The notes under the pieces were generated by a model. It was not told the origin of the DNA, made no database searches, and was given only the letters and a program-made list of their open reading frames with translations. DNA of 48,749 nt from Pseudofrankia coriaricola (GTDB lineage Bacteria; Actinomycetota; Actinomycetes; Frankiales; Frankiaceae). How positions within the stretch are numbered: the first letter of the stretch is position 1; each line of letters starts with the position of its first letter. The position numbers and the translations under genes are program-made. Location: contig NZ_MBLO01000043.1 of the NCBI RefSeq assembly GCF_001854805.1, forward strand, positions 1 to 48,749, read 5' to 3'. Positions 10,843 to 39,139 of this stretch are shown piece after piece.

Positions 10843-10931
10843 GAACATGGGACTGCTAAGAACATAGATTGCAGACTGTAGGCGCCGGTCTGTCCGGATC
10901 GATGCGCTTCCGCTGCAGGAGAGGAGGCCGC

Positions 10932-11801
10932 GTGCCGAAGGAACGTCCCGCGCCACCAACCGTCCGCTCGCGGCGACTGGCCGCAGAGCTACGTCGCCTG
11001 CGAGAAGCAGCCGGGCTTACTCGCGAGCAGGTCGCCGAGCAGACCGGGATCAACCCGGCCACGCTCTACCGGCACGAAACCGCGACGGCACGCTCCCGGC
11101 CACAGCGCCGCACGATGATCGCCCTGCTGAACCTGTACGGCGCGACCGACCAGCAGCGCGAGGACCTGATCGCGCTGTCCCGCGAGGCCGACATCCAAGG
11201 CTGGCTGCGGCCCTACCACGCCGAGTTGCCTGAGCCCTACACCGCCTACATCAGCTTCGAGGCCGAGGCCCGCGCGGTGCGTAACTACGAGTCCCTGTTC
11301 ATCCCCGGACTGCTACAGACCGAGGACTACGCCCGGGCCGCCATCCGCGGCAACCTGCCCAGGGCCACCCCCACCCAGATCGACCAGCGCGTCCAAGCCC
11401 GCCTCGAACGCCAGACCGTCCTCACCAAGGCCAACCCGCTACATCTGTGGGCGATCCTCGACGAGGCCGCCCTGCACCGCCAGGTAGGCGGCCCAGGCAT
11501 CCTGCACGCCCAACTCACCCGGCTCCTCGAGACCGCCGACCAGCCGAACGTCACCATCCAGGTGATCCCGTATACCGTCGGCGCCCACCCTGGAATGCAG
11601 GGATCGTTCTCGATCATGGACTTCCCGCACCGCACCGACCCAGAGATCATCCACGTCGACGGCATGGCCGGCGACCTGTTCCTCGACGCCGAAGCCGACA
11701 TCCGCCGCTATAGCCTGGTCTTCGACCTTCTACGCGCCCAGGCACTCAGCCCGGACGACACAGCGGCGCTGATCAACAACCTGACGGCGAAACGGGAGTG
11801 A
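10932..11801 (+). CDS. XRE regulator with DUF5753 (Scr1-like antitoxin-type regulator)
   Basis: The 289-residue protein has an N-terminal XRE helix-turn-helix (about 16-75, with LRRLREAAGLTREQVAEQTG and INPATLYRHE) and a C-terminal DUF5753 domain (about 95-280). Family landmarks are FEAEARAVRNYESLFIPGLLQTEDYARA, the E-R-Q-x-x-L helix, and VIPYTVGAHPGMQGSFSIMDF. The start is GTG 10932, preceded by GAGAGGAGG. The upstream extension to 10869 is poor in coding character. It overlaps the DUF397 gene by four bases. The pair is the widespread actinomycete arrangement also annotated as an Scr1-type toxin-antitoxin-like regulator. Confidence 0.88.
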   Translation: MPKERPAPPTVRSRRLAAELRRLREAAGLTREQVAEQTGINPATLYRHETATARSRPQRRTMIALLNLYGATDQQREDLIALSREADIQGWLRPYHAELPEPYTAYISFEAEARAVRNYESLFIPGLLQTEDYARAAIRGNLPRATPTQIDQRVQARLERQTVLTKANPLHLWAILDEAALHRQVGGPGILHAQLTRLLETADQPNVTIQVIPYTVGAHPGMQGSFSIMDFPHRTDPEIIHVDGMAGDLFLDAEADIRRYSLVFDLLRAQALSPDDTAALINNLTAKRE

Positions 11802-12025: not shown

Positions 12026-12415
12026 GGATCACCCACCTGCCATCGGCTCCCCGGGCGGAATCCGCTAGTTCGCCCTCGACGAGCCCGGGGGTGTGGTCCG
12101 TCAGCCGGTTCAACCCGTAGATGGCCGGTTTTCGCGACAAGCTCTTCGGTCGCCTGGGCATCCCAACCTTGGCCGGCTGATTCGCCGGGATCCCCGTCCA
12201 TCGACACCCTTCGTCGGCACAGTCCGGCTGTTTCCCAGCCTCACAGTGACGCGGCATGATCACCGGGGTCCCATGCCGGATGGTGCGGTCATAGGACAAG
12301 CCCGGACCTCTCTCATCGCTGGCCGACCGTGCTGCGGTCCAGGCCCCGACCAACGAAACGGGAACCCACGACGAGGCATTCGACGGGTTGTCCGCAATGG
12401 AGGGAAACTCAGGCA
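12026..12415. other. 390-bp intergenic stretch, no gene supported
   Basis: I see no convincing coding sequence here. A minus-strand frame at 12022-12207 lacks recognisable motifs. The region must hold the promoter of the hydrolase gene, but no clear -35/-10 pair stands out. Confidence 0.4.
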
Positions 12416-13207
12416 ATGGACGAGATCTGCCTGACCGCGACCGATGGTGTTCGTCTGCGGCTCGCACTGCACGTGTCGTCGGCGTCGGTGGCACGCGGGA
12501 CCGTGGTGCAGGCACATGGCATCACGGCCGACATGGACGAGGGCGGGATGTTCGTCCGGCTGGCCGAACGGCTCGCCGCCGAGGGTTTCAACGTCGTGCG
12601 GTTCGACTACCGCGGCCATGGCCGTAGCGACGGCACCTCCCGCGGGGTCACGGTGGCGGGCGAGATGATCGACCTGGGCACGATTATCGAAGATGCGGTC
12701 ACACGGTTTGGCGAGCCGCTGGCGGTAGTGGCAGCGAGTTTCGGCGCGGTCTCGACGCTCCTGTCGCTGAGCCGGCTGCCAGTGCGTGGGCTGGTGCTGT
12801 GGAACCCGGTACTCGACCTGACCCGGACATTCATCGAGCCCGAACTTCCCTGGGGGATCGAGAACTTCGCCGACACCCGCCAACTTGGCCACCTGAGGGA
12901 ACACGGCTACCTGCCGGTGGACGGCGGGTTCGAACTCGGCTGGGTGGCATTCGAGGAATTCCACACCTACGGGGCCGCACCGTTGGAGTCCTTCCTGACC
13001 AGCTCGGTCCCGGCCCTGGTCGTGCACGGCGACCAGGACCAAGCCGTGTCGTACGACATCGCCCGCGACGCGGCCAAAGCGCGGCCGTCCTGTGACTTTC
13101 ACACTGTCGCCGGATCGGATCACGGGTTTGACTCGCGCGAGCGGGAGGACGAGGCGATCGCCGTGACCGTGCGCTGGCTCGGCCACCAGTTTGGCGGCGC
13201 CCGGTGA
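12416..13207 (+). CDS. Alpha/beta-fold hydrolase
   Basis: The 263-residue protein is a small alpha/beta hydrolase. An oxyanion segment VVQAHGITADMDEGGMF is followed by RFDYRGHGRSDG, the usual strand 4 signature. The nucleophile elbow is AASFGA (Ser at about 108), an A-x-S-x-G variant of G-x-S-x-G. The acid lies in HGDQDQAV and the His in GSDHGF, so the triad looks complete. The start ATG 12416 has GGAGGG and AGG motifs upstream. The longer frame from 12329 is Arg/Thr-rich and unlikely. The arrangement resembles acyl-esterase or serine-peptidase-like hydrolases. The substrate cannot be told, and it stands alone. Confidence 0.82.
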   Translation: MDEICLTATDGVRLRLALHVSSASVARGTVVQAHGITADMDEGGMFVRLAERLAAEGFNVVRFDYRGHGRSDGTSRGVTVAGEMIDLGTIIEDAVTRFGEPLAVVAASFGAVSTLLSLSRLPVRGLVLWNPVLDLTRTFIEPELPWGIENFADTRQLGHLREHGYLPVDGGFELGWVAFEEFHTYGAAPLESFLTSSVPALVVHGDQDQAVSYDIARDAAKARPSCDFHTVAGSDHGFDSREREDEAIAVTVRWLGHQFGGAR

Positions 13208-13337
13208 CCGGTTCGCTTCCCCGGACTTCCGTCCGGACTGCTGCGGCGCTGGGCGCGGCTGCGGGCCGCCGAGGTCGGTGGGGCCTTCGGACCTGTGGAG
13301 GCAGTCGGAGATGCAGCTTTCGCAACGTAGTCAAGTC

Positions 13338-13366
13338 TTGACGACCTGTGCTTGTCTGGCTGATTG
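13338..13366 (+). promoter_or_regulatory. Possible promoter of the lanthipeptide-locus regulators
   Basis: TTGACG at 13338-13343 is followed after 17 bases by TGATTG at 13361-13366. The -35 is good and the -10 is weak. It lies 47 bases before the ATG of the first small gene of the operon. Confidence 0.3.
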
Positions 13367-13412
13367 TGCGGGGGCGGCCCACTTCGGCACACTCCCGAGT
13401 TCGGAGGGCATG

Positions 13413-13685
13413 ATGCGGCTAAGTTTCGTTGGTATCGACCCGAGGTCGCCTGACAACGGCTGCCCGGCGGTCTTCGTGGATGAGGACACCGGCGACCTGT
13501 GGTTTCAGGGCGAGACGGTCACGGATCGGGAGGCGCTCGCGGAGGTCACGCGGCACAGTCCTCTTGGACCGGCTGAGGCTGTGGTCCGGGTCCCGGCGGT
13601 CATGAAGGCGTTCATCGTGGAGGCGGCCAATGGGACCTATGAGCAGGGCAGGCGGGGGCCTGGACCGCATCCCGGGCGTGGCTGA
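13413..13685 (+). CDS. Small conserved-looking hypothetical protein (90 aa)
   Basis: The 90-residue protein starts MRLSFVGIDPRSPDNGCPAV and continues VFVDEDTGDLWFQGE, a pattern of short beta strands typical of small single-domain actinomycete regulators found beside DUF6879 and XRE genes. No family name is recognised. ATG 13413 is chosen over ATG 13410 because GGAGGG (13403-13408) is then four bases away. Its last 56 bases overlap the next gene, whose ribosome-binding site lies inside it, so production of the two is probably coupled. Confidence 0.6.
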   Translation: MRLSFVGIDPRSPDNGCPAVFVDEDTGDLWFQGETVTDREALAEVTRHSPLGPAEAVVRVPAVMKAFIVEAANGTYEQGRRGPGPHPGRG

Positions 13686-14199
13686 GGAGCCCGACCCGCC
13701 GTTTGGCACGCTTCTGCGCGCGTGTTCGTCCTCCGCCGTGCATCTGGAGATGCGGGATACCTACGATCGCGACGACCCGTGGTTTCAGGCGTGGCTGGGC
13801 GGCGACCAGGAGGAGTTCCGGCGGCGGCTGGCGCCCCGGCCATGGTTGGACCTGATCGCCGAGGTGACCGGTCATGGTGTCGATGTCCGCCGGGTCCGGG
13901 TCGTGTCCGAGCCGGTAACCGACTACATCAGGTTCGAGCACGCGACGACCGCGGCGAGTGTCACCGCGGGTGAGCAGATCCGCTGGCTGCCCCGGCACCT
14001 GGCCACCGGCCTGTTGCTCCCGGCCAACGACTTCTGGGTCTTCGACGGCCGGCAAGCCCAGTTCAACTACTTCTCCGGCGACGGAGAGTTTCTCGAGACC
14101 CGGCTCTCTCCCGACCCGGTGATCGCCGCACAGTGCGCGGCGACGTTCGAGGCCGCGTGGGAGCGGGCCGTTGCGCACGAGAAGTACGACCTGGCCTGA
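13630..14199 (+). CDS. DUF6879 family protein
   Basis: The 189-residue soluble protein matches DUF6879: SAVHLEMRDTYDRDDPWFQAW near the N-terminus, VRRVRVVSEPVTDYIRFEH in the centre, and LLLPANDFWVFDGRQAQFNYF towards the end. Such proteins are often encoded just before DUF5753-XRE regulators, and their own role is unknown. ATG 13630 is chosen because GGAGG (13619-13623) lies six bases upstream. This makes a 56-base overlap with the preceding gene. A later GTG (13678) lacks a ribosome-binding site. The DUF5753-XRE gene follows after 36 bases. Confidence 0.8.
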   Translation: MGPMSRAGGGLDRIPGVAEEPDPPFGTLLRACSSSAVHLEMRDTYDRDDPWFQAWLGGDQEEFRRRLAPRPWLDLIAEVTGHGVDVRRVRVVSEPVTDYIRFEHATTAASVTAGEQIRWLPRHLATGLLLPANDFWVFDGRQAQFNYFSGDGEFLETRLSPDPVIAAQCAATFEAAWERAVAHEKYDLA

Positions 14200-14235
14200 C
14201 GTCGATCTCGTCGCCGTCGCGGCAGTCTTTCTCCT

Positions 14236-15081
14236 GTGCCTCCGTCCTCCTCCAGCGCCCAGCAGGCTCGCCAGCTTCTCGCGGACCGGCTTCGCGATCT
14301 GCGCCGCGACGCCGGTCTGACCGCGGTCGAGCTGGCTGTTCGCGCTGGGTGGGAGCGCACGAAGGTCTCCAAGATCGAGCACGCTACCCGGCCCCCGTCC
14401 GCGGCTGACATCCGCGCCTGGTGCCAGATCTGTGGCGTCGAGAACGACGCGGCGGATCTGATCGCGTCCCTGCACGCGGCGGAGGGGATGTGGGTCGAGT
14501 GGCGGCGGATGGAGCGCTCCGGGCTCCGCCGCGCTCAGGAGGCGAGGCTGCCGCTGTACGAGCGGACCCGTCAGTTCCGTGCCTACAGTTGTTGGATTGT
14601 CCCCGGTCTCATTCAGACGGAGGACTACACCCGCGCCGTGCTACGGGCCTACCAGCAGCGGCGCGGGCTCCACGATGACGTCGAGGCAGCGGTCGCGGCC
14701 CGGATGAAGCGCCAGCGGGTGTTGCGCCGTAACCAGCGCACTGCCGTGTTCCTCGTTGAGGAGTCGGTGCTACGCAACGGCTTCGGCGGTCCGGCGGTCA
14801 TGCGCGGCCAGCTGGCCCACCTGGCCGAGGTGACGACATGGCCCGCGGTGTCCCTCGGCGTCATTCCCGCGTCGCCCGACCGTGGCATGGCCGGCGCGGC
14901 CGAGGACTTCTGGATCTTCGACAATGAGCAGGTGAACGTCGAGCTGATCTCCGGGCACCTGACCGTCACCCAGCCGACCGAGATCGGCCTCTACGCGCAG
15001 ATGTTCGCTCGTTTCGGCGAGATCGCCGTCTACGGCAGCCGCGCCCGCGACCTCTTTGCCTCCACAGGTCGACAGCTGTAG
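14236..15081 (+). CDS. XRE regulator with DUF5753, in the lanthipeptide locus
   Basis: The 281-residue protein has a helix-turn-helix at about 15-75 (LRDLRRDAGLTAVELAVRAG then WERTKVSKIEHATRPPS) and a DUF5753 domain (about 95-275) with YERTRQFRAYSCWIVPGLIQTEDYTRA and GVIPASPDRGMAGAAEDFWIF. It is a second member of the same family as the protein at 10932-11801. It starts with GTG 14236 and no good ribosome-binding site is seen. It directly precedes the methyltransferase gene and probably controls the lanthipeptide genes with the DUF6879 protein. Confidence 0.85.
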   Translation: MPPSSSSAQQARQLLADRLRDLRRDAGLTAVELAVRAGWERTKVSKIEHATRPPSAADIRAWCQICGVENDAADLIASLHAAEGMWVEWRRMERSGLRRAQEARLPLYERTRQFRAYSCWIVPGLIQTEDYTRAVLRAYQQRRGLHDDVEAAVAARMKRQRVLRRNQRTAVFLVEESVLRNGFGGPAVMRGQLAHLAEVTTWPAVSLGVIPASPDRGMAGAAEDFWIFDNEQVNVELISGHLTVTQPTEIGLYAQMFARFGEIAVYGSRARDLFASTGRQL

Positions 15082-15175
15082 TCCGGCTTGCCACACTCGG
15101 GCACACTCCTGGCCCTGGTGATCTCGCCCGCCCTACGGTGATCGCGCCACCCGATGACCACCACAGGAGCGCGAC

Positions 15176-16429
15176 GTGACCCAGGCCCCCGGCGCCGCCA
15201 GTTCCAGCGAAGCGGACGAGTTGCGCGCGGCGATGACCGACAGGCTTATCGCCGACGGCTGGATCGGCGGGCCCGAGGTGGAGGCCGCGTTCCGGGCCGT
15301 CCCGCGGCACTTGTTCGTCCCGGATGGCACGCCACTGGACACGTCCTACGACGTCGGCCAGTCCGTGATCACGAAGGTGGGCGAGGACGGCGCGAGCATG
15401 TCGACGGTGTCGGCACCGTGGTTGCAGGCCCGGATGATCGCGCAGGCCGGTATCGCGCCGGGGATGCGGGTCATGGAGGTGGGCAGTGGGGGCTACAACG
15501 CGGCGCTGATCGCCGAGATCACCGGCGAGAAGGGCCTGGTGGTGACCGTGGACATCGACCCGGACGTGACCGCCCGGGCGACCGCTGGGCTGGACGCCGC
15601 CGGGTATGGCGGCCGGGTCGTCGTCGTCACCGCGGATGCGGAGCACGGCGTTCCGGAGCACGGGGATTATGACGCGGTTGTGGTCACGGTCGGCGCGTGG
15701 GACATCGCGCCAGCGTGGCTGGAGCAGCTGGCCCCCGACGGTGTGATCGTGGTCCCGCTGCGGATGAATACGTTCACCCGTTCCCTCGCGTTCCGCCGCG
15801 CAGGCGAGCACTGGACGAGCACGTCAGCGCAGCTCTGTGGGTTCGTGCCGATGCAGGGGTTGGGCGCGCGGATGGAGCGCCGGCTGCCGCTGCGTGACCC
15901 CGCGGGCGGACACGTGACGCTCCTGTTCGACGAGACCGAACTGGACGACCCAAGCCTGCTGGAGGGGGCGTTGGAGTCCGGGCCGGTCAAGGCGTGGTCT
16001 GGGCTCACGATCCCGGACCAGGTCGACTTCGCGGACCTTCACCTGTGGCTCGCCGGGTTCCTGCCGGGTTTCTGCCGGGTCGAGGCGGGGTCTGGCACGC
16101 CGATGGCGGCTGAGGGCGTGTGCAGAACGTGGTTCCCGTTCGGCGGCGTGATCGGCGACTCGTTCTGCGTGATGGAACTCCGCGCGACCGACACTCCCGG
16201 CGGGGAGTACGAGTTCGGCGCGCGAGGGTACGGGCCGCACGCCGTCGAGGCCGCTGAGGCGTTGGTCGCCCAGATCAAGGACTGGGACGCCCACGGCAGG
16301 GAGATTCCGGGCGACGGTTTTGCCTACTGGCCTGCCGGGATCACGATCCCTTTGCCCGGTGAGGCCCCCGTCTGTGTTTACCGGAAGGGCCATGGCACCG
16401 CCACCGTCACTTGGCCGCCGGCCGGCTAA
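15176..16429 (+). CDS. Protein-L-isoaspartate-methyltransferase-like enzyme, FxLD lanthipeptide type
   Basis: The 417-residue protein has an N-terminal PCMT-like SAM-binding domain: VPRHLFVPDG, then GMRVMEVGSGGYNAALIAEI (motif I, about 101-120), VTVDIDPDV (motif II) and DYDAVVVTVGAWDIAP. The C-terminal 200 residues form the extra domain seen in the methyltransferases specific to FxLD lanthipeptide systems. PIMT-like enzymes in lanthipeptide clusters methylate an Asp side chain of the modified peptide, which can then become aspartimide or isoaspartate. The precursor's adjacent Asp43-Asp44 are candidate targets (inference). The start is the GTG at 15176 after GGAGCGCGAC. It is followed by the precursor gene. 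Confidence 0.85.
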   Translation: MTQAPGAASSSEADELRAAMTDRLIADGWIGGPEVEAAFRAVPRHLFVPDGTPLDTSYDVGQSVITKVGEDGASMSTVSAPWLQARMIAQAGIAPGMRVMEVGSGGYNAALIAEITGEKGLVVTVDIDPDVTARATAGLDAAGYGGRVVVVTADAEHGVPEHGDYDAVVVTVGAWDIAPAWLEQLAPDGVIVVPLRMNTFTRSLAFRRAGEHWTSTSAQLCGFVPMQGLGARMERRLPLRDPAGGHVTLLFDETELDDPSLLEGALESGPVKAWSGLTIPDQVDFADLHLWLAGFLPGFCRVEAGSGTPMAAEGVCRTWFPFGGVIGDSFCVMELRATDTPGGEYEFGARGYGPHAVEAAEALVAQIKDWDAHGREIPGDGFAYWPAGITIPLPGEAPVCVYRKGHGTATVTWPPAG

Positions 16430-16521
16430 CGAGGGCAGGCTCGCACTGCTCGGCAACCCCTCGGTACATCTCTGTTCACGCGATCCGAGTAGTCCGCTTT
16501 GTTGATAAGGAGAGCCAGCAC

Positions 16522-16713
16522 ATGACGCCTTTCCCTTCCGTTCTCGCGCCCGCGCCGGTGTCTGGCGACACCGACCCGTTCGACGCGGACCTCGACCTGA
16601 GGGTGATTGAGGCGGCTGGCCCGCTGGTCATCACGATGTGCGCCACGGACGACAACTGCGGGTCGACCTGCCAGCCGAGTGCCTGCTCCAGCATCTCCGA
16701 CGACCCGTCCTGA
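16522..16713 (+). CDS. FxLD family lanthipeptide precursor
   Basis: The 63-residue peptide has a leader with TDPFDADLDLRVIEAAG (about 17-33) and a core beginning near VITMCATDDNCGSTC (36-50). The core has four Cys (40, 46, 50, 55) and Ser/Thr at 38, 42, 48, 49, 53, 56, 57, 59 and 63 available for dehydration and ring formation. The leader motif is a variant: F20 is followed by DAD before L24-D25, instead of the compact F-x-L-D. AAGGAGA (16508-16514) gives a strong ribosome-binding site seven bases before ATG 16522. The next gene is LanB, separated by a strong hairpin. Confidence 0.9.
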   Translation: MTPFPSVLAPAPVSGDTDPFDADLDLRVIEAAGPLVITMCATDDNCGSTCQPSACSSISDDPS

Positions 16714-16721
16714 CTCGATCT

Positions 16722-16755
16722 GGCCGCCGGCACCCCGCCTCGCATGCCGGCGGCC
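16722..16755 (+). terminator. Perfect 11-bp hairpin between precursor gene and lanB
   Basis: GGCCGCCGGCA (16722-16732) pairs exactly with TGCCGGCGGCC (16745-16755) around a 12-base loop. There is no T run, as is usual for actinomycetes. It starts nine bases after the precursor stop and ends 42 bases before the lanB start. Partial termination or mRNA protection here would keep precursor above enzyme, as known for other lanthipeptide operons. That role is an inference. Confidence 0.6.
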
Positions 16756-16797
16756 CCGCCCCGATCCCCTTTGTGTCGCCTGAGCAGGGAGTCCGCC

Positions 16798-19700
16798 ATG
16801 GCCGCGCGGTACCAGCATCACGGCGTGGTTCTGCTCCGGTCGACGACAGATCCCGGAGATCTCGACCTGCCGTCCGACCTGGACCTGGCCGATCCGGGAG
16901 CCGTCGAAGCCGAGGGCGGGGCCTGGCTCGCGAAGACCTGGTCGCGCGAGGACGTGCGCGACGCCGTGACCGCCGCGAGTCGAGACCTTGCCGCGCGGGT
17001 GCAGGACATCGTGTCCGGGTCCGGGCATCCCACCGCCCGTGACCTGCGGCGCGCGGTGCTGTCGCTCGCTTCCTACCTGCTGCGGTGGCAGCGGCGGGTC
17101 ACTCCGTTCGGCTTGTTCGCCGGAGTCGTCCCCGTCGCCGTTGGACCGGCCTCGGCGAGCGTCGGTCACGCGCATCGTGTGCTCGCTCGTCCGGATGCCG
17201 CGTGGATCGCGAGTCTGGCGCGGGAGCTCAGCCGCACCTCGGCCCTGTGGGAGCGCCTTACCGTCGTGGCGGACTCCACCGCGATCGTCCGGGACGGCCG
17301 GCTGACCCTGACGCTCCGCGCCGCTCCTGGCGCTCGGACACCGGGTCCGGCTCGGGAGGCGTCGATCCGCGCGACCGAGCCCGTGCGGTCCGCGATGGAG
17401 ATGGCCTCGTCACCGATCAGCGTCGCCGCGCTCGCCGACGCGCTCACGAACCGGTTCCCCGGGGCGGCGGCGGACCGAGGCCGCACGCTTCTCGGTGACC
17501 TCATCGACGGGGACTTCCTGATCACTGGCCTCCATCCGCCGATGACCGCCGACGACCCGTTGGAATACCTATGCGCCGGGCTGCGCGCGGCCGGCGCGGA
17601 CCAGGTGCCAGAGATCACCACCGTGCTCTGCGAGCTGGCTGACATCGCCTGCCTGATCGCCGCACACAACGACTGCAGCCGCCCGTCGGAGGCTGTGGCG
17701 TTGCGCGTAGCCGCCGGTGGGCGGATGGCTGCGCTGACGGCCGACGCCGACTACCCCCTGGCGTTGGACACGCGACTCGACGCGTGTGTCACGATCCCAG
17801 GCTCGGTGCTGGAGGAGGCCGCCGCCGCAGCCGACGTGCTTCTTCGCCTGACAACCCGCCCGTTCGGCGTGATGTCCTGGCTGGAATACCAGGCACGGTT
17901 CAAAGAACGGTACGGCCCTGGTGTACTCGTGCCGGTCCGGGACCTCGTCGCCGACTCCGGCCTCGGCTATCCCGACGGCTACCTCGGCGCGCCGACCGCG
18001 CGCCCGGTGTGGCGGACGTTGACGGAGCGCGACGCGGCGCTGCTGGCACTGATCCAGCGGGCCGCGCTCGACGGCACCGACGAGATCCGCCTGACCGGTG
18101 ACGACGTGCGCGCGCTCACGGTCGGCGATCCCGACGCGGTCGTACCACCGCCACGCGGCGAGATCGCCGTCGCCCTGCAGGCCCGATCCACCGCGGCGAT
18201 CAACGCCGGACAGTTCACCCTGCGGGTAACCGGGGTGGCTCGTGTCCCCGGCAGCATGGCCGGCCGGTTCAGCCATCTACTGACCGCCGCGGAACGGGCG
18301 GCACTCGCAGCGACCTTCCGAACTACGCGCCCTGGTGCGGAAACCCTCGACGTGCAGGTGTCGTTTCCGCCCCGTGTGCCGCGCACCGCACACATGACCC
18401 GGGTCGCACCGCTGCTGGACACCGTCGTCCCCATCGGCGAGCACCCCGCCGACACGAAGACGGCCATCGCCGTGGACGACCTGGCCGTGACCGCCGACGG
18501 AGCACAGCTATACCTCGTCCACGTACCTACGGGACAGCGCGTCGTGCCGCACATTCCACACGCGCTGGAGATGACGGCCTACACCCCGCCGCTCGCCCGC
18601 TTCCTCGCCGAGGTCGCGAACGCCCGGTGCGCCGAACTGCGCCCGTTCGACCTTGGCGCCGCCCGGGTCCTGCCCTACGTACCCCGCATCCGTTACCGCA
18701 GGACGATCCTCTTTCCGGCCCGCTGGAACCTTGAGGAAACCGCCCTCGCCGCCTGCCCTGGCGTCAACTTCGACGCGCGGTTGGCCGCCTGGCGGCACCA
18801 GTGGCGGGTTCCCGCCCGCATAGTGATCTGCGACGGCGAGCAGCGGCTCCCGCTGGACCTGGAACACCCACTCGACCGGCAACTCCTGCACACCTACCTC
18901 AGCCGGACCTCGCGCGCCGAGCTCCGCGAAGACAGCCCGACCGGGGCCAACGACTGGCTCGGCCGGCCCGCTGAGCTACTCATCCCGCTTACCCTCGCAA
19001 GCCCTCCACCACGTCCCCTTCCGGCTACGACTCCGCCAGGCGGCGTACATCGGCCAGGGACAGGCCTGATGGTGTGCGCCCGGATCATCGGCAACCCGGC
19101 ACGGTTCGATGATCTCATCGCCGTCCACCTCCCCCGGCTCGCTGGTTCTCTCCACCCAGTGGCCAAGCGCTGGTGGGTACGTCGCTACCGCGACATGATC
19201 CACCCGGAGATCCCGCAGCACATCTCCGTGCACCTACGACTCACCGATTCCGACGGCTTCGCCCCGCTCGCCGCCGACCTCGCCCGGTTCGCCGCCGACC
19301 TCGAGGCGCGTGGCATGCCCGCCACGTTGAGCTTCGTCCCGTACTACGACCAGCCCGGCCGGTATGGGACAGGCCGCGCGCTGGCCACCGCGGAGGGGGT
19401 ATGGGCGGCGGACACGGCCGCAGCGGTCGCCCAACTCGCCACGGCCGCCAGCGGTGTACCAGGCCAGGCGCTCGCCGCCGCGTCGATGGCTCGGATCGCC
19501 GCCGCGTTCGCCCCCGACCCCGCGACCGGACACCGGGCTCTGACCCGCTGCCTGGACCAGGGAAGTGGCCCGCTGGATCGGAACCTGCGCGATCTGGCCC
19601 GCGACCTCGCTGACCCGGTCAGCGGACCGCACGCACTGGCCACGCTGCCCGGCGGGGACGCGGTCGCGCAGACATGGACCAGCCGCGACACGGCACTCGC

Positions 19701-19872
19701 CGCCTACCACGAGCAACTGTCCACGCAGCGCGACCCAGGCACCGTCCTACGAACCCTGCTGCACGAGCACCACACGCGCGCCGTCGGAGTCGATCCCGCC
19801 TTCGAGAAGCAGACCGGACGACTTGCCCGCGCCGCCGCCCTGCGCCAGCTCGGCAAGGGAGGCCACCTGTGA
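16798..19872 (+). CDS. LanB class I lanthipeptide dehydratase (full length)
   Basis: The 1024-residue enzyme should dehydrate Ser and Thr of the precursor by glutamyl-tRNA-dependent glutamylation and elimination. The glutamylation domain (about 1-700) starts with HHGVVLLRST and contains RWQRRVTPFGLFAGVVPVAVG, the TPFGLF landmark of LanB enzymes. The elimination (SpaB_C, thiopeptide-type) domain occupies about 750-1015, with KRWWVRRYRDMIHPEIPQHIS-like sequence and ISVHLRLT. Length matches single-chain LanB proteins such as NisB. ATG 16798 follows AGGGAG at six bases. Earlier in-frame codons at 16744 are Arg/Pro-rich. The stop overlaps the LanC start (GTGA). Confidence 0.9.
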   Translation: MAARYQHHGVVLLRSTTDPGDLDLPSDLDLADPGAVEAEGGAWLAKTWSREDVRDAVTAASRDLAARVQDIVSGSGHPTARDLRRAVLSLASYLLRWQRRVTPFGLFAGVVPVAVGPASASVGHAHRVLARPDAAWIASLARELSRTSALWERLTVVADSTAIVRDGRLTLTLRAAPGARTPGPAREASIRATEPVRSAMEMASSPISVAALADALTNRFPGAAADRGRTLLGDLIDGDFLITGLHPPMTADDPLEYLCAGLRAAGADQVPEITTVLCELADIACLIAAHNDCSRPSEAVALRVAAGGRMAALTADADYPLALDTRLDACVTIPGSVLEEAAAAADVLLRLTTRPFGVMSWLEYQARFKERYGPGVLVPVRDLVADSGLGYPDGYLGAPTARPVWRTLTERDAALLALIQRAALDGTDEIRLTGDDVRALTVGDPDAVVPPPRGEIAVALQARSTAAINAGQFTLRVTGVARVPGSMAGRFSHLLTAAERAALAATFRTTRPGAETLDVQVSFPPRVPRTAHMTRVAPLLDTVVPIGEHPADTKTAIAVDDLAVTADGAQLYLVHVPTGQRVVPHIPHALEMTAYTPPLARFLAEVANARCAELRPFDLGAARVLPYVPRIRYRRTILFPARWNLEETALAACPGVNFDARLAAWRHQWRVPARIVICDGEQRLPLDLEHPLDRQLLHTYLSRTSRAELREDSPTGANDWLGRPAELLIPLTLASPPPRPLPATTPPGGVHRPGTGLMVCARIIGNPARFDDLIAVHLPRLAGSLHPVAKRWWVRRYRDMIHPEIPQHISVHLRLTDSDGFAPLAADLARFAADLEARGMPATLSFVPYYDQPGRYGTGRALATAEGVWAADTAAAVAQLATAASGVPGQALAAASMARIAAAFAPDPATGHRALTRCLDQGSGPLDRNLRDLARDLADPVSGPHALATLPGGDAVAQTWTSRDTALAAYHEQLSTQRDPGTVLRTLLHEHHTRAVGVDPAFEKQTGRLARAAALRQLGKGGHL

Positions 19873-21032
19873 CCACACCGACGATCAACGCCCGGCAGGC
19901 GGAAACCCAGTCACTCGCCCACGGCACGGCCGGCATCGCTCTGCTGCGCATCGAGCTCGCCCTCACAGGTGCCGGTACCTGGCAGGACGCGCACGAGGCC
20001 CTCGTTCTCGCCACGTCTGGACCGGTGGACGGCAGTCCGAGCGGGTGCCTCGTCCACGGTGCGCCGGCCCTGCGCTTCGTGCTGCATGCCGCCGCTGCGG
20101 ACGGGCAACCCCGCTACCAGTACGCCGCTCGCACGCTCGGCCGCCACCTACACCGCATCACGCGTCGACGGCTCGACGCCGCCAGGGCCCGCATCGCGCG
20201 CGAAGCACCCGGCACGTTCGACGAATACGACCTCTTCTACGGGCTCACCGGACTTGGACTCGTCCTGCTGCGCACCGCCCCGGCCAGCGACACCCTCGCC
20301 GACGTCCTCACCTACCTCACGCGACTCGCGACCCGACCCCTCACTCTCGACGGGCTCCAGGCCCCGGGCTGGTGGGCCGCCCGCGACCCCGACCCGCTGT
20401 CCCCCACTCCGGACGGCCACGCGAACCTGGGCATGGCGCACGGCGTCGCCGGCATCCTCGCGGTGCTCGCGCTCGCCACCCGGGGCGGTCACACCGTTGA
20501 CGGCCAACACGACGCGATCCACGTTCTGTCCGCCTGGTTCGACCAGTGGCGCCAGGACTCGGACGAGGGACCATGGTGGCCGCAGTGGATCACCCGCCAA
20601 GATCTGCGCACCGGGCGTCCTTCCCAGCCAGGTCCGGGAAGATCATCCTGGTGCTACGGAACGCCCGGTATCGCCCGTGCCCTCCAACTCGCCGCCCTCG
20701 CAATCGGGGATCCCGCCCGCCAAACGGCCGCCGAGCACACCTTCGCCGCCTGTCTGGCCAGCCCCCAACTCGCCAGACTTTCTGACGCGGGCCTGTGCCA
20801 CGGCCTCGCCGGCGTCTACCAGACAGCGACCCGCGCCGCCGCCGACGCGATCACCCCCGGCATCGGCGCCCACCTACCCGAGCTTTCCGCCCTCCTCGCG
20901 GCACGAGCGAGCACCACCGACGGGTCCACCACGCTGCTCACCGGCGACACAGGCATCCGACTCGTACTTGAGACGGCGCGTCGGAAAGGCGCACCTCTAT
21001 CCGGATGGGACTCATGCCTGCTGCTCTGCTGA
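19869..21032 (+). CDS. LanC-like lanthipeptide cyclase
   Basis: The 387-residue protein is a LanC-type alpha/alpha toroid that adds Cys thiols to dehydroamino acids. The expected landmarks are present: GMAHGVAG (about residue 190, catalytic His), WCYGTPG (zinc Cys, about 261) and LCHGLAG (zinc Cys and His, about 309-310). An N-terminal SLAHGTAGIALL repeat and an FYGLTGLG repeat show the toroid periodicity. The start GTG 19869 overlaps the LanB stop by four bases. A frame reaching 19674 overlaps LanB and is not used. Length and motifs are normal, so it should be active. Confidence 0.9.
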   Translation: MTTPTINARQAETQSLAHGTAGIALLRIELALTGAGTWQDAHEALVLATSGPVDGSPSGCLVHGAPALRFVLHAAAADGQPRYQYAARTLGRHLHRITRRRLDAARARIAREAPGTFDEYDLFYGLTGLGLVLLRTAPASDTLADVLTYLTRLATRPLTLDGLQAPGWWAARDPDPLSPTPDGHANLGMAHGVAGILAVLALATRGGHTVDGQHDAIHVLSAWFDQWRQDSDEGPWWPQWITRQDLRTGRPSQPGPGRSSWCYGTPGIARALQLAALAIGDPARQTAAEHTFAACLASPQLARLSDAGLCHGLAGVYQTATRAAADAITPGIGAHLPELSALLAARASTTDGSTTLLTGDTGIRLVLETARRKGAPLSGWDSCLLLC

Positions 21033-21979
21033 CCCCGCCGGCCGCCGAACGGGTCGCCAACGCCGTCCGTGCCGTTCTCGCCGGGCGCGACACCGCTGCC
21101 ACCGCGGCCGAGGCGGGCCTGGAACCGGCCGACCTCGCGGACGCGACCGACGCCTACCACCTGGCCGGGATCGCCGCGCTCGAACGACGCGCCGCCGCAC
21201 CATGGCAGCAGGTCAACGTCTACCCCGCCGGCCATGACCCGGCCGACCGTACCCTGGCGACCTTCGTCGGTCCACGGCTCGACATGCTCGTGGCGGGCGG
21301 CGCCGCATCCGGCTGGTGGCACATGAACAAGCCTCCCGGCTGGCGAATACGCCTCCTCGACGCCGACATGGACACGGTGCGCCAGCTACTCGACGACCTG
21401 GCCGCCGCTGGAGTCATTGCGGCGTGGAGCCCCGCCATCTACGAACCGGAAACAGCGGCGTTCGGCGGGGACACCGGTATCGGTATCGCCCACGCGCTGT
21501 TCTGCGCCGACTCCGCCGGAGTCCTCGACCACCTCCGCCGCGGAAACGCGCTACTGGGCAGCCGCGAGCTGTCCATTCTGCTGATCAGCGCCATGTGCGC
21601 CGCCGCTGGACTGGACTGGTATGAGCGGGGCGACATCTTTGCTCGTGTGGCCGCGATGCGCCCAAACCCGCCGACCACGGCCAACGTGAGAACCGCACTC
21701 GCCGCCCAGCTCCGCGTCCTGCTCGCCACGCCCACCCAACCGGAATCCCCACTGTTCACCGCCAGCGGGCCGGCCGCGCTCGCCGCCCCGTGGCGTGACG
21801 CCTTCGAGGAGGCAGGACGACGCCTCTGCGTGGCGGCCACCGCTGGCGCCCTGAGCCGGGGGCTACGCGCCGTCCTTGCCCACATGGTGATCTTCCACTG
21901 GAACAGGTTCGGCTTCTCCGCCTCCACACAGGCTGTCCTCGCGCGCACGGCGATCAGCGCATGCCTTCCCGAGGACTGA
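21014..21979 (+). CDS. Thiopeptide-type bacteriocin biosynthesis domain protein (SpaB_C-like)
   Basis: The 321-residue protein has the features of the thiopeptide-type elimination-domain family: PWQQVNVYPAGHDPADRTLA near residue 60, WWHMNKPPGWRIRLL, WSPAIYEPETAAFGGDTGIGIAHALFCADS, and a C-terminal helical part ending VIFHWNRFGFSASTQAVL. The W-x-x-x-Y-E-P-E-...-F-GG segment is characteristic. LanB in this locus already carries such a domain, so this is a second copy as a free-standing protein. It may act on the leader or a further step. ATG 21014 is preferred over ATG 21005 because GGATGGGA lies just upstream. It overlaps the LanC gene. Confidence 0.82.
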   Translation: MPAALLTPPAAERVANAVRAVLAGRDTAATAAEAGLEPADLADATDAYHLAGIAALERRAAAPWQQVNVYPAGHDPADRTLATFVGPRLDMLVAGGAASGWWHMNKPPGWRIRLLDADMDTVRQLLDDLAAAGVIAAWSPAIYEPETAAFGGDTGIGIAHALFCADSAGVLDHLRRGNALLGSRELSILLISAMCAAAGLDWYERGDIFARVAAMRPNPPTTANVRTALAAQLRVLLATPTQPESPLFTASGPAALAAPWRDAFEEAGRRLCVAATAGALSRGLRAVLAHMVIFHWNRFGFSASTQAVLARTAISACLPED

Positions 21980-21982
21980 CCC

Positions 21983-23107
21983 ATGAACGACGCCACCCTG
22001 AGCACCGCGCTGCGGTGGTTCCCCCTGATCGGCTGGGCCCGTCTCCCTTGTCCGCCGCTCCCCGTCCGGCTCGCGGAGATCGACGACATCGTCCGCAACG
22101 CCCGCGGTGCAGGCGAGGACGCCCTCACCGCAGCGTCGCAAGCACTGAACCTGGCCGCGCTCGTGGCGAGCGACTGCGGCCTGCCCGACCTGGCCTATGC
22201 CCTGTGCTGGCGGCACATCGACGCCTACCGCCATGCCCCCCGCCCGCTCACGGTGCCACTCGCCAAACGGATGCTCGGCCCGGCCCTCAACCTGATTCGG
22301 CTTCGCCTACGCGCCGGGCAGCCGGACGACGCTCTCCGTCTCCTCGACCTCATCCTTCGCGCGGCTACCACCGGCGCCGATATCTCCCTCGATGGCCGGG
22401 CACTCCCCCTTGCCGGCCTGATCGGCACACACGACGAGCACCGTGAACTCCGCCAGTCCGTCTGGCGTCAGTGCCTGACTGACGGCATCCGCGCACACGC
22501 GATGGCCGGCCGATGGGACCAGGCGGCGGAATTCGCCCTACACCACCGCGGCGTCGCTGGCCACCTCCTGGAAGGTCGCCAGGCCATGATCATCGCAGCC
22601 CTTCTCGCTGGAGACAGCGACGCCGCCCGGGAGTTGCTCACCGCCTCCACGATCACCGAGCGGTGGGAACGACACGTGGCCGCCTGCCTCACCGTCATGT
22701 GCGCCGCCCCTTCCGACGCCGCCGCGGCCATCGACGCAATGATCGTGCACTTCCTCGACGACAACGTGACGCCCGACCACATCGTCTTCCGCGTCCGGCT
22801 TGGCCTTACCGTCGCAACGCTCGCCGCCTGCACCAGCCCGGATGGCGCCAGCGCCGTAATAACCCGAATCAGCGACGACATTCTTGCCACCGGTGATGGG
22901 CACGCCGCCCACGACATCCTCACGACCCCAATGCCCGCTCTGGCCCTCGCCCCGAGGTGCCGGGAGAGCCTCGCCGAACTGGTCTCCGCAGCCGGGCTCC
23001 GGCGTGGGGCGTTGCCGCCGGAGCTATCCGGCTCCCTCGACGCATCGGTCAGCGCGGCCCTCGCACTCACCGACTCCCACCTGCGCGTCCCGCGAACTAC
23101 CGCATGA
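21983..23107 (+). CDS. Helical-repeat hypothetical protein of the lanthipeptide operon
   Basis: The 374-residue protein is almost all alpha helix, with repeated pairs such as AASQALNLAALVASDCGLPDLAYAL and AMAGRWDQAAEFALHHRG, suggesting TPR-like hairpins. No catalytic motif or membrane segment is visible. It begins four bases after the thiopeptide-type gene, with GAGG eight bases before ATG 21983, so it belongs to the operon. Helical-repeat proteins of this type occur beside FxLD systems, and a scaffolding role is a guess. It is the last gene of the lanthipeptide locus. No transporter or leader peptidase follows. Confidence 0.65.
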   Translation: MNDATLSTALRWFPLIGWARLPCPPLPVRLAEIDDIVRNARGAGEDALTAASQALNLAALVASDCGLPDLAYALCWRHIDAYRHAPRPLTVPLAKRMLGPALNLIRLRLRAGQPDDALRLLDLILRAATTGADISLDGRALPLAGLIGTHDEHRELRQSVWRQCLTDGIRAHAMAGRWDQAAEFALHHRGVAGHLLEGRQAMIIAALLAGDSDAARELLTASTITERWERHVAACLTVMCAAPSDAAAAIDAMIVHFLDDNVTPDHIVFRVRLGLTVATLAACTSPDGASAVITRISDDILATGDGHAAHDILTTPMPALALAPRCRESLAELVSAAGLRRGALPPELSGSLDASVSAALALTDSHLRVPRTTA

Positions 23108-23974: not shown

Positions 23975-24254
23975 CTCGTCGCCGCGAACCGTGGCCAGAG
24001 TGGCTTCACCGCCTGCTCGCCGACGGCAAGGCGCTGGTCCTCGCCGTCGTCGGCAGCGGTACGTCGCCGAGAACGTCCAGCAGGTCATCTCCTGAATCCG
24101 GTGAGATCAGCATCGACGAATCCGTCAGGCTGCTCGGCTGCTGGAACCGGCTGGCCAGGACCTTCAGCCCCGAACACGGCGGCGCCGGTGGCCCATGGGC
24201 CGGGCGTGGGCGTCCGGCACCCCGTCTTCGCGTGAGATCATCTCAAGGAGCCCT

Positions 24255-26000
24255 GTGAGCACCCTCGGTAGTTTCATCTGGTCGATCGCCGACCAGCTTC
24301 GGGGTCCCTATCGCCCCAATCAGTACGGCAACGTGATTCTCCCGCTCACGATCCTGCGCCGGCTCGACTGCATCCTCGAGCCCGACCGGGAGACGGTCCG
24401 GGAGCTCGCGCGGAAGTTCGACAACCCGAACCGGCTGAAGATCGAGGTGAAGAAGGCGACCGGCAGGCCGTTCTACAACACCTCCAACTACGGGTTCGGC
24501 AACCTCCTGGCCGACGCCGACGGGCTGGCAGACAACCTGGCCGACTACATCGACCGGTTCTCGGCGGACGTGGACGTGTTCGAGTACTTCGACTTCAAGA
24601 AGGAGATCCTCGCGCTGGAGAAGGCCGAGCTCCTGCGCGAGATCATCACCTCGTTCAAGGCAATCAACCTGCACCCCAAAGCGGTGTCGAACGCCGACAT
24701 GGGCGATGCGTTCGAGTACATCATCCGCAAGTTCAACGAGGCCGCGAACGAGACCTCCGGAGACCATTACACCCCGCGCGACGCGATCCGGCTACTGGTC
24801 GACCTGCTCTTCGCGGAGAAGGACGTCGACCTGACCGAGGCCGGCATCGTCCGCACTCTCTACGACCCGACCGCGGGCACCGGCGGCATGCTCGCCTTGG
24901 CCGAGGAACACCTGCTCGCGCAGAACCCGGACGCGAACGTGAGCCTGTACGGGCAGGAGTACAACTCGCAGTCGTACGCGATCTGCAAGTCCGATCTCCT
25001 CGCCAAGGGCCACGACGCGGCCAACATCGCCTTCGGCAACACGCTCACCGACGACGCATTCAAGGGCAAAAAGTTCGACTTCTGCATGTCCAACCCGCCG
25101 TACGGCGTCGACTGGAAGCAGTACGCCAAGAAAGTCACCAAGGAACGTGACGAGGCCGGCCCGTACGGCCGGTTCGCCCCCGGCCTGCCGGCGACCTCGG
25201 ACGGGCAGATGCTCTTCCTGCTCCACCTGGCCCACAAGATGCGGGCGCCCGCGGACGGCGGCGGCCGGGTCGGGATCGTCATGAACGGCTCGCCGCTCTT
25301 CAACGGCGCCGCCGAGTCCGGCCCCTCCGAGATCCGCCGATGGCTGCTGGAGAACGACCTGGTCGAGGCGATCGTCGCGCTGCCGACCAACATGTTCTTC
25401 AACACCGGCATCGCCACGTACATCTGGATCCTCGACAACACCAAGCGCCCCGACCGCAGGGGCCTGGTCCAGCTCATCGACGGCACCTCGTTCTGGACCA
25501 AGATGCGCAAGAACCTCGGCTCCAAGGGCCGCGAGATCTCCAACGCCGACCGCGAGAAGGTCGTCCGTCTGTACGCCGACTTCCTCGACGCCGACCCCGA
25601 CTACACTAAGGTGCTGCGCAACGACGAGTTCGGCTACTGGACCATCACCGTCGAGCGCCCGCTCCTCGACGAGTCCGGCAAGCCGATCGTCGACCGCAAG
25701 GGCCAGCCCAAGCCCGACCCGAAGAAGCGTGACACCGAGAACGTCCCCTTCACCTACGGCGGCTCGACCGCCGGCCGGGCCGGCAAGATCGAGGTCATCA
25801 ACGCCTATTTCGGCGTCGAGGTGAAGCCGCACGTTCCCGACGCCTGGATCGACTGGGCCAAGGTCAAGACTGGCTACGAGATCCCCTTCACCCGCCACTT
25901 CTACAAGTACGTCCCACCCCGCCCCCTCGCCGAGATCGACGCCGACCTGGACAAGCAGGTCGCCAAGATCCTCGACCTGCTGCGAGAGGTCGAGGGATGA
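24255..26000 (+). CDS. hsdM: Type I restriction-modification methyltransferase subunit HsdM
   Basis: The 581-residue protein is the N6-adenine methyltransferase subunit of a type I system. An N-terminal HsdM helical domain (SFIWSIADQLRGPYRPNQYG) precedes the methylase core. SAM-binding motif I is DPTAGTGGML (about residue 204) and the catalytic motif IV is NPPYG (about 279), both intact. GTG 24255 has AAGGAG a few bases before it. The frame from 24195 is not supported. It methylates host DNA with HsdS and is required with HsdR for cutting. The stop overlaps the hsdS start (ATGA). Confidence 0.95.
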   Translation: MSTLGSFIWSIADQLRGPYRPNQYGNVILPLTILRRLDCILEPDRETVRELARKFDNPNRLKIEVKKATGRPFYNTSNYGFGNLLADADGLADNLADYIDRFSADVDVFEYFDFKKEILALEKAELLREIITSFKAINLHPKAVSNADMGDAFEYIIRKFNEAANETSGDHYTPRDAIRLLVDLLFAEKDVDLTEAGIVRTLYDPTAGTGGMLALAEEHLLAQNPDANVSLYGQEYNSQSYAICKSDLLAKGHDAANIAFGNTLTDDAFKGKKFDFCMSNPPYGVDWKQYAKKVTKERDEAGPYGRFAPGLPATSDGQMLFLLHLAHKMRAPADGGGRVGIVMNGSPLFNGAAESGPSEIRRWLLENDLVEAIVALPTNMFFNTGIATYIWILDNTKRPDRRGLVQLIDGTSFWTKMRKNLGSKGREISNADREKVVRLYADFLDADPDYTKVLRNDEFGYWTITVERPLLDESGKPIVDRKGQPKPDPKKRDTENVPFTYGGSTAGRAGKIEVINAYFGVEVKPHVPDAWIDWAKVKTGYEIPFTRHFYKYVPPRPLAEIDADLDKQVAKILDLLREVEG

Positions 26001-27241
26001 CACTGGCGCAGTTGACCTTCAACCAGTCTTGGGCTGGCAGGGTCCCGCCTCGCTGGCGCTGGAGCAGGAACAAGGAGCTTCTGACTGAATCGCTGGCCCT
26101 GTCAGCCGATGGTAACGAGGAGCTTCTCAGCGTCTCGCATTTGACGGGCATCACTCCGAGGTCGGAGAAGACCGTGACGATGACGGCTGCAGAGAATCTT
26201 GAGGGTTACCGAATCGTGGAGCCTGGGGATCTCGTCATCAACACGATGTGGGCGTGGATGGGTGCGCTCGGCATTGCCAAGCAGGCCGGGATTGTGAGCC
26301 CTGCATACGGCGTGTATAGCCCACGTGCAGCCGCTCCGTTTGAGCCCCGCTTCTACGACTACGTCTACCGGTCGGAGCCGTACGTGATGGAGATGACTCG
26401 TCTCTCACGCGGCATTTGGTCGTCACGGCTGCGCCTCTACCCGGATGTATTCCTGGGCATGGCCGTGCCTGCGCCACCGCTGAAGGAGCAGCGTGCCATC
26501 GCCGGCTACCTCGACCGCGAGACCACCCGCATCGACACGCTCATCGAGGAGCAGCAGCGCCTGATCGAGATGCTCCGCGAGAGGCGAAGAGCGACGATCG
26601 CGGAGGCGTTGGATGGTCACGAGATGACTCGCCTGCGTCGGCTGGTCGATCGCGAACGGCCGATGACCTACGGGATCCTTCAGTGCGGTCCGCTGGTCGA
26701 CGGAGGCGTTGTCTACGTCGGCCCCTCGGACATCGTTGGCGAGGGTCGGTCTCCGATGCGAACTGCCCTGCGGACAACTGCACCAGAAATTGCGGCTGCC
26801 TACCAGCGATCGGTTCTAGCAGGAGGGGACGTCGTCGTCTCGATCGGACCGGCCTACGGCAAGGTCGCTGTCGTCTCCGATGACTTGGCCGGAGGAAATC
26901 TGACCCAAGACACCGTTAGAGTTGCGCTGCGTCCTGAGCTCGTAGACACGAGGTTCGTGGTTTGGGCTCTGCTGTCGCGGCAGACAGCGGATTATTGGGA
27001 CTACGAGATCATGGGAGCCACCTTCCGTCGGCTGAACCTCGGGACGCTGGCGAGGACTCCGATTCCACTACCGAGCCTGGATGGACAACGCCGCATTGCC
27101 GCGTACCTCGACGAGCAGACTGCGAAGATCGACTTGCTGATCGCCGAGGCCGAGCGGTTCATCGACCTGTCCCTTGAGCGCCGCTCTGCGCTGATCGCGG
27201 CGGCGGTGACGGGGCAAGTCGACGTGCGGGAGTTGGTCTGA
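25997..27241 (+). CDS. hsdS: Type I restriction-modification specificity subunit HsdS
   Basis: The 414-residue protein has the two-fold HsdS plan. The first target-recognition domain (about 1-165) is followed by conserved helices (PPLKEQRAIAGYLDRETTRIDTLIEEQQRLIEMLRERR). The second recognition domain (about 210-365) is followed by matching helices (PSLDGQRRIAAYLDEQTAKIDLLIAEAERFI). The two recognition domains set the bipartite DNA target, which cannot be read from sequence. The gene is visibly richer in A and T than hsdM and hsdR, as is common for exchanged specificity genes. It shares ATGA with hsdM and TGATG with hsdR. Confidence 0.93.
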   Translation: MTLAQLTFNQSWAGRVPPRWRWSRNKELLTESLALSADGNEELLSVSHLTGITPRSEKTVTMTAAENLEGYRIVEPGDLVINTMWAWMGALGIAKQAGIVSPAYGVYSPRAAAPFEPRFYDYVYRSEPYVMEMTRLSRGIWSSRLRLYPDVFLGMAVPAPPLKEQRAIAGYLDRETTRIDTLIEEQQRLIEMLRERRRATIAEALDGHEMTRLRRLVDRERPMTYGILQCGPLVDGGVVYVGPSDIVGEGRSPMRTALRTTAPEIAAAYQRSVLAGGDVVVSIGPAYGKVAVVSDDLAGGNLTQDTVRVALRPELVDTRFVVWALLSRQTADYWDYEIMGATFRRLNLGTLARTPIPLPSLDGQRRIAAYLDEQTAKIDLLIAEAERFIDLSLERRSALIAAAVTGQVDVRELV

Positions 27242-39095: not shown

Positions 39096-39139
39096 TCTAT
39101 GGCGGTCCCCCTACAGGCGGTGAGGGCGGGGCGGCTGGG

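Follow-up and report, generated by a model that had tools for sequence, protein, structure and literature searches.

A lanthimiditide operon in Pseudofrankia coriaricola with an additional predicted syn-lyase and a LanB lacking the canonical arginine pair

Which enzyme removes glutamate from a glutamylated lanthipeptide precursor when the LanB of a cluster departs from the canonical elimination site and a second, stand-alone lyase is encoded beside it? This question is raised by an operon within a 48,749-nucleotide stretch of Pseudofrankia coriaricola DNA (contig NZ_MBLO01000043.1; the whole stretch is termed here the window). The operon (15176-23107) runs in one direction and encodes, in order, a PIMT-like O-methyltransferase, a precursor peptide (LanA), LanB, the cyclase LanC, a stand-alone glutamyl lyase (GL) and a helical-repeat protein (HRP), with a DUF6879/helix-turn-helix (HTH)-DUF5753 pair in front. 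Because lanB and lanC overlap by 4 bases and lanC and the lyase gene by 28, and because 3 bases separate the latter from the HRP gene, these four genes form an operon. By curated profiles the cluster is of a known kind, the actinobacterial class I FxLD family; a class I lanthipeptide (lanthimiditide) operon is very probably what best explains the locus as a whole, and its assignment as a lanthimiditide cluster with an additional, predicted syn-lyase is secure. A preliminary description, made from the letters alone, had recognised the six co-directional genes and a complete FxLD-family class I operon, and both points are borne out by coordinates and by scores above curated cut-offs; the syn-type lyase and the altered elimination domain of LanB, which are the most informative features of the locus, are absent from it.

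LanB enzymes transfer glutamate from Glu-tRNA to serine and threonine residues, guided by the leader of the precursor, and the stereochemistry of the rings decides the activity of a lanthipeptide. The hypothesis explored here is that threonine dehydration has been shifting from the anti-lyase domain of LanB to the separate syn-lyase, with allo-methyllanthionine rings as the predicted outcome.

The LanB elimination domain and the stand-alone lyase

The lanB gene (16744..19872, + strand) encodes a full-length enzyme, scoring 664 bits with Lant_dehydr_N and, in its C-terminus, 101 bits with TIGR03891; its likely start is the ATG at 16798, which has a better ribosome site than that at 16744. The glutamylation motif is intact: Y111, R114, R118 and T120 correspond to Y80, R83, R87 and T89 of NisB. 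In NisB, Arg784 and Arg786 constitute the arginine pair for the gamma-carboxylate. At these positions the window LanB has S828 and H830 (S828-V-H830, 19225..19233, + strand), and it thus lacks the canonical arginine pair of an anti-lyase; it keeps R873 and H1007, the equivalents of Arg826 and His961, the latter being reported as catalytic in NisB (PMC4341554); the numbering was verified on alignments of the NisB chains. We infer that the elimination activity of this LanB may have been lost.

The 81 stretches compared gave 61 LanB rows in 59 loci, of which 50 were retained once 11 had been dropped for a C-terminal domain that was short or undetected. The arginine pair is lost in 16 of these 50, the window included. 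Fourteen of these pair-less LanBs form one clade in a quick tree (branch support 100), spread over families f1, f17 and f18, and the remaining two, at loci L093 and L152, represent a second, separate loss. The position of NisB Tyr776 is eroded as well, being His in 10, Tyr in 4 and Gln or Asn in 2 of the 16, as against Tyr in 32 and Phe in 2 of the 34 normal LanBs. Searches of the literature on FxLD and lanthipeptide methyltransferases, on syn-elimination and on the elimination residues of NisB, at the level of titles, abstracts and excerpts, showed no account of pair-less LanBs.

The stand-alone GL (21005..21979, + strand) scores 164 bits with TIGR03891 (cut-off 48), which matches all 32 members of its alignment (window counted), and a profile search with it leads to elimination-domain structures of LanB and thiopeptide enzymes (5ehk, 7cww, NisB). 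A low-confidence structural model (predicted local distance difference test, pLDDT, 51.7; reliable over residues of about 65-145) finds its best match in NisB (Z 9.4 for 137 residues at 4.1 A; Z 9.3 for 87 residues at 2.5 A), with MibB scoring Z 8.1; since unrelated ferredoxin-like folds score Z 8-9, the structural match alone is modest. By its published signature, a syn-glutamyl lyase has Lys instead of the Tyr of anti-lyases, is hydrophobic at the position of NisB R826 and lacks a His base (PMC9486935, PMC9011353), and in CoiSA the K46A change leads to accumulation of glutamylated peptide (PMC9486935). In GL, which is additional to LanB, K109, R114 and R116 have the spacing of CoiSA K46, R51 and R53, with Ala at the R826 position and Ile at the H961 position. 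Across 53 lyases (window counted) the Lys is present in 51, the R826 position is Ala in 48 and the H961 position is Ile, Leu or Val in 51, and the first and second Arg of the pair are kept in 50 and 52. GL is thus a predicted syn-glutamyl lyase, which should make (E)-dehydrobutyrine ((E)-Dhb), and the combination of a full LanB with an "additional stand-alone GL" has been recognised as a category before (PMC9486935). The idea that the protein has a function other than that of a lyase, suggested by its lack of R826 and H961 equivalents, was dropped given the syn-lyase signature (PMC9486935).

Every one of the 16 pair-less LanBs has a stand-alone lyase nearby and none has a fused one, whereas for the 34 normal LanBs in the first sample the lyase is stand-alone in 19 cases, fused in 8 and missing in 7; fused lyases therefore number 0 of 16 as against 8 of 27 at lyase-bearing normal loci (Fisher test, p = 0.018). 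For the stand-alone association itself, 16/16 compares with a lyase at 27/34 first-sample normal LanBs (p = 0.08), at 58/88 normal LanBs of both samples (p = 0.005) and at 58/74 methyltransferase-type loci (p = 0.065), in each case uncorrected for common descent. (Six contig-edge loci without a lyase are excluded from the 88 and the 74; the 74 include all 34 first-sample normal LanBs, though L092 has no methyltransferase nearby; and L116 is counted with the stand-alone group despite a second LanB row.) The second sample consists of 60 LanBs chosen by strong TIGR03891 scores, all of which keep the pair (60/60), and because it holds no pair-less LanB it could not test that group; a lyase is found at 31 of its 60 loci, stand-alone at 19 and fused at 12, and contig edges account for 6 of the 29 lyase-less loci. 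Among pair-less loci that were not chosen through HRP, 10 of 10 have a stand-alone lyase.

GL also carries an N-terminal helical extension (residues ~11-64). This extension is present at 15 of the 16 pair-less loci (all but L127), including both independent losses, and in 4 of the 59 lyases beside normal LanBs, although the profile used to find it was built from four pair-less loci (the window, L072, L099 and L106) and therefore favours such loci. The four comprise 3 of 28 lyases in the first sample (at L102 and L110 and the lone Lys-less one at L105) and 1 of 31 in the second (L164). In the L105 stretch, the protein encoded at 2777-3712 is a second extended lyase-like protein and is devoid of the catalytic Lys. 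A profile of pair-less LanBs (A6) gave high scores to 28 further LanBs, 11 in f17 and 17 in f18, each of which, by position only, is followed closely and in the same orientation by a gene for a TIGR03891 protein. Eighteen of them reach the 346 bits of L127, the lowest-scoring verified pair-less LanB of f17 and f18 (and itself part of A6); the other 10 fall between 346 bits and the 279 bits of the best verified normal LanB, so that their assignment is uncertain.

Elimination by LanB or by the lyase

In the proposed pathway, LanB would transfer glutamate from Glu-tRNA onto Ser and Thr residues of the 63-residue precursor under guidance of the leader, and the glutamate would be removed either by the anti-lyase domain of LanB, in which the Arg784/Arg786 pair is missing, or by the separately encoded syn-type lyase, which would convert glutamylated Thr to (E)-Dhb. 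LanC would then close thioether rings that, by analogy with CoiA1, would join T42 to C46, T49 to C55 and C50 to S57, with C40 as an extra Cys, after which the PIMT homologue would methylate Asp44 within the first ring, leading to an aspartimide and to isoaspartate. HRP might serve as a scaffold for these enzymes, and leader removal and export would be carried out by proteins encoded elsewhere.

The reading developed here, which is put forward tentatively and as possible rather than probable, is that in a clade of full-length LanBs spanning at least three actinobacterial families the anti-site is weak or dead and the extended stand-alone syn-lyase has taken over the elimination of Thr. These LanBs would remain active as glutamyl transferases; in their products, that of the window among them, allo-methyllanthionine would stand at ring positions where the DL or LL form would be expected, and LanC would be adapted to (E)-Dhb. 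Such a handover is feasible in that three dehydrations were still obtained when CoiSA(ED) was combined with a CoiB dead for elimination (PMC9486935). Several observations weigh against it. Pair-less LanBs keep R826 in 16 of 16 cases and H961 in 14 of 16 (L127 has Arg and L152 Gln), so that anti-elimination may persist; with R784A as its only change NisB achieved 7 dehydrations (PMC4341554), and the two Arg residues of CoiSA are not essential (PMC9486935). CoiC could not form the three rings from a peptide in which every Dhb was (E) (PMC9486935). In 33 of the 53 lyases, the window's among them, a His stands two places past the H961 position, and hence the absence of a His base depends on the alignment. 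Moreover, since 14 of the 16 pair-less LanBs belong to one clade, the association with stand-alone lyases reflects few independent events. What the sequences themselves show is gene content, family membership, residue patterns and conservation; the chemistry, ring pattern, order of steps and product assigned to the locus are deduced from them.

The retained R826 and H961 are also what speaks for a division of labour like that of the coi cluster of Streptomyces coelicolor A3(2), in which the pair-less LanB would still anti-eliminate at most sites and the stand-alone lyase would serve a single residue. This explanation, which has nearly an even chance of being correct, draws further strength from the mildness of the R784A change in NisB (PMC4341554) and from the coi precedent itself (PMC9486935). 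It fits poorly, however, with the erosion of the Tyr776 position in pair-less LanBs and with the loss of H961 as well in 2 of the 16. Serine yields dehydroalanine, which has no E or Z form. At the position of Thr57, the presumed target of the coi syn-lyase (PMC9486935), 14 readable precursors of pair-less loci have Ser in 10 cases, including Ser57 of the window, and Thr in 4 (2 were unreadable), which again argues against a coi-like division; the corresponding residue is Thr at all 7 readable normal loci with a fused lyase (3 unreadable) and Ser in 6, Thr in 6 and another residue in 3 where a stand-alone lyase accompanies a normal LanB (4 unreadable). Any stereochemical role of the window lyase would therefore lie at T38, T42 or T49.

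It is very unlikely that the extended lyase instead uses its N-terminal helices for docking on LanB and forms a composite site, to which the lyase would contribute the Lys and the Arg pair and LanB R826 and H961. The two residue sets are complementary, and the extension is far more frequent at pair-less loci than among lyases beside normal LanBs; yet in NisB these residues lie within one domain, sharing them would require an unusual geometry, and the coi lyase domain eliminated in company with an elimination-dead CoiB (PMC9486935). Least probable of all, and likewise very unlikely, is a decayed, silent cluster, which would accord with the lack of an exporter or protease nearby and with the coi and olv products not being reported from native hosts in the relevant parts of the coi/olv paper (PMC9486935), but not with open precursor and enzyme frames, ribosome-site-like sequences before most starts, translational overlaps and conservation of the locus in sister genomes.

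A takeover by the syn-lyase, if true, would contradict the published prediction that all full-length LanBs eliminate in the anti manner (PMC9486935). A LanB without R-x-R together with an extended lyase is a sequence marker for clusters that may make the rare allo-methyllanthionine. More generally, the erosion of the LanB site, in one clade and once outside it, provides a system for asking whether elimination stereochemistry can pass from one enzyme to another.

Precursor, methylation and maturation

The gene for the 63-residue precursor (P0007; 16522..16713, + strand) is preceded by an AAGGAG ribosome site, and its product scores 55.4 bits with TIGR04363, whose curated cut-off is 30. In MTPFPSVLAPAPVSGDTDPFDADLDLRVIE the leader recognition motif has the form F-x3-LD (F20-D-A-D-L24-D25; 16579..16596, + strand), as the preliminary description had read it; the compact F-x-L-D, which gave the family its name without being its curated criterion, is absent. 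The precursor is thus an FxLD member by profile score with an altered name-giving motif. To call this leader unusual was an overstatement. Of 62 precursor matches listed, the 40 lying in fetched stretches (window counted) were read: 35 of the other 39 have [FWY]-x-L-[DNP], three (L098, L099 and L106) have F-x3-LD and one has neither. These three sister precursors are 76-83% identical to that of the window, and F-x3-LD, shared with them (4 of 40 in all), is therefore a subfamily trait rather than a one-off. At L071 and L073 FALD stands a few residues upstream of the profile-aligned LELD, and a study of RiPP recognition elements describes that FxLD may turn into LxLD (PMC12710340). L116 has, at 12933-15254, another precursor of the type found in the window, which adjoins a LanB-like frame of 433 residues, possibly a decayed or frame-broken copy; the neighbouring LanB of that genome is normal.

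The methyltransferase, LanS_A (15176..16429, + strand), belongs to the equivalog TIGR04364 ("methyltransferase, FxLD system") with 435 bits against a cut-off of 320. The ITMCATDDNCGSTCQPSACSSISDDPS core contains T42-D-D44-N-C46, and hence the conserved Asp within a TxDxC-type ring motif that characterizes lanthimiditides (PMC13001092, PMC10787088); 38 of the 39 other precursors read share the pattern T-x-[D/N]-x-C. The METHYLTRANSFERASE target is predicted, by analogy, to be D44 of the cyclised precursor, inside the first ring (codon at 16651..16653, + strand). OlvSA methylates the conserved Asp after cyclisation, and the ester passes through an aspartimide mostly to isoaspartate; Asn, which follows D44 here, is among the residues observed next to the target (PMC13001092). 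The stable methyl mass shift that had been proposed as a check is accordingly not to be expected: on the OlvSA precedent (PMC13001092) the product would be an aspartimide (-18) and then isoaspartate or Asp (0). The cyclase gene lanC (19869..21032, + strand; LANC_like 125 bits) begins with a GTG overlapping lanB, and its product shows by eye the WCYG and CHG motifs; a LanB glutamylation domain and a LanC with such Cys and Cys-His motifs, the hallmarks of a class I lanthipeptide system, are thus both present.

An ATP-binding cassette (ABC) protein was found in the window neither by Walker/signature motifs nor by phmmer with one ABC query, and genome-wide PF00005 had 404 candidates, of which 150 were scored and listed as matches, none of them on the contig of the window. 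The preliminary description was therefore right that none is nearby, but it overstated the point. Walker/signature motifs place an ABC protein within 5 kb of the cassette at 2 of 41 loci, and phmmer recovers both of these together with a fragment in L109; with the limit widened to 9 kb from LanB, in the enlarged set, the count is at least 3 of 59 (one being the L109 fragment, at a stretch edge), a lower bound because many stretches end before 9 kb. A missing exporter is thus usual for this family. No recognisable leader protease is encoded nearby (proteases were not sought genome-wide), and the same holds for coi and olv, whose account remarks that none is encoded (PMC9486935); dmxorosin, a class I product without a cluster protease, is still matured by a heterologous host (PMC11855644). 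The alpha/beta hydrolase upstream (12329-13207) was considered as a leader protease and rejected, a homologue being found in only one (L090) of 40 other loci scanned. Elsewhere, at L095 (14645-16687) and L096 (1981-4023), a gene for a 681-residue ABC exporter-like protein directly follows the stand-alone lyase and is a candidate exporter, and an ABC gene was noted for Frankia EuI1c I in a 2010 survey (PMC3091789). As far as the relevant sections of the literature go, for most clusters of this kind the mature form, the protease and the biological role are not established (PMC7268733, PMC9486935), so that these questions are general and not peculiar to the locus.

The last gene of the operon (21983..23107, + strand) encodes HRP, a TPR-like protein without a Pfam match over cut-off; among its relatives up to 7 of 23 give weak TPR matches (best E 4e-6). 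Its model is all-helical and of low confidence (pLDDT 54.8, built without an alignment), and its profile found no solved structure (best E 4). HRP lies beside LanB at 10 of 16 loci drawn by methyltransferase and at 21 of 60 second-sample loci, where 21 of 21 have the methyltransferase; the overall share of 31/50 is inflated by 20 stretches (L071-L090) chosen for holding HRP. Because the sister loci L099 and L106 do not have it, HRP is not indispensable. From position and company, not from sequence, it is probably the CoiH of the coi cluster.

Neighbouring genes, distribution and known systems

Three regulators had been described in front of the operon, and two of them stand: a probably regulator-linked DUF6879 protein (13630..14199, + strand; PF21806, 179.6 bits) and a transcriptional regulator with HTH_31 and DUF5753 matches (14236..15081, + strand). 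The third is an open reading frame of 91 codons (13410..13685, + strand) without a Pfam match, possibly a regulator-linked small protein; position 13413, from which the locus had been counted, is the second of two adjacent ATGs. Homologues of the DUF6879 and HTH-DUF5753 proteins share a fetched stretch at 9 of the 59 LanB loci (window counted), and also at the sister locus L098, which is without lanB and outside the 59. Further upstream (10869-11801) lies a second HTH-DUF5753 regulator, related below cut-off to the Sco1979 family. Directly downstream of the operon is a type I restriction-modification system (24195-30366; HsdM 24195-26000, HsdS 25997-27241, HsdR 27241-30366), followed by an open frame of 1299 residues (33413-37312) that matches nothing in Pfam, NCBIfam or PADLOC at E 0.001. 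Genes resembling those of Tad and type II-IV secretion (TadE, T2SSF, T2SSE, SAF) and for a DUF2637 protein occupy 37981-44229, 2673-4130 and 46251-47882, where TraG/AAA_10 matches are weak and below cut-offs; judging from these Tad/TraG-type genes, the window may belong to a mobile or plasmid-like element.

Within the same genome there are 5 precursor matches, 4 of them over cut-off, and 6 methyltransferases over cut-off, five being further FxLD-type matches on other contigs (C22, C44, C46, C85 and C262). The precursor family occurs in 27 and HRP in 17 of 35 genomes of the bacterial family, and TIGR04364 exceeds its cut-off in 49 of 246 genomes drawn class-wide (close relatives among them); published surveys count 837 (PMC13001092) and then 1305 (PMC10787088) such lanthipeptide clusters. 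Relatives have the same cassette and gene order, and the cluster of Frankia sp. QA3 (L111) is near-orthologous, with a precursor 81% identical. To expect a likely new product was thus to claim too much, the more so as a 2010 account had already reported Frankia clusters that contain such methyltransferases (PMC3091789).

These Frankia type 1 lantibiotic clusters share genes for LanA, LanB, LanC and an O-methyltransferase with the window; the relevant sections of that account do not describe lyase type, loss of LanB residues or HRP (PMC3091789). SptBb, the lyase of the split dehydratase of SapT, resembles GL in having Lys for the anti-lyase Tyr and no His base, but its partner is a split glutamyl transferase, whereas the window has a full-length LanB (PMC9011353). 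The olv cluster of Streptomyces olivaceus (OlvA/B/C/SA) has, like that of the window, a LanS_A that acts on the conserved Asp after cyclisation, but, as described, neither an additional lyase nor a CoiH-type protein (PMC13001092, PMC9486935). The coi cluster (CoiA1/B/C/SA/H) likewise combines a class I LanB and LanC with a PIMT-type methyltransferase and an additional syn-lyase, and it further resembles the window in CoiH (probably the counterpart of HRP), in the lack of a protease and in a similar T-x3-C-x2-T-C core (PMC9486935). In coi, however, the lyase is fused to the methyltransferase, CoiB is canonical and the site in question is Thr57, whereas the window has Ser57 in its precursor, a LanB without the Arg pair and an extended lyase that stands alone.

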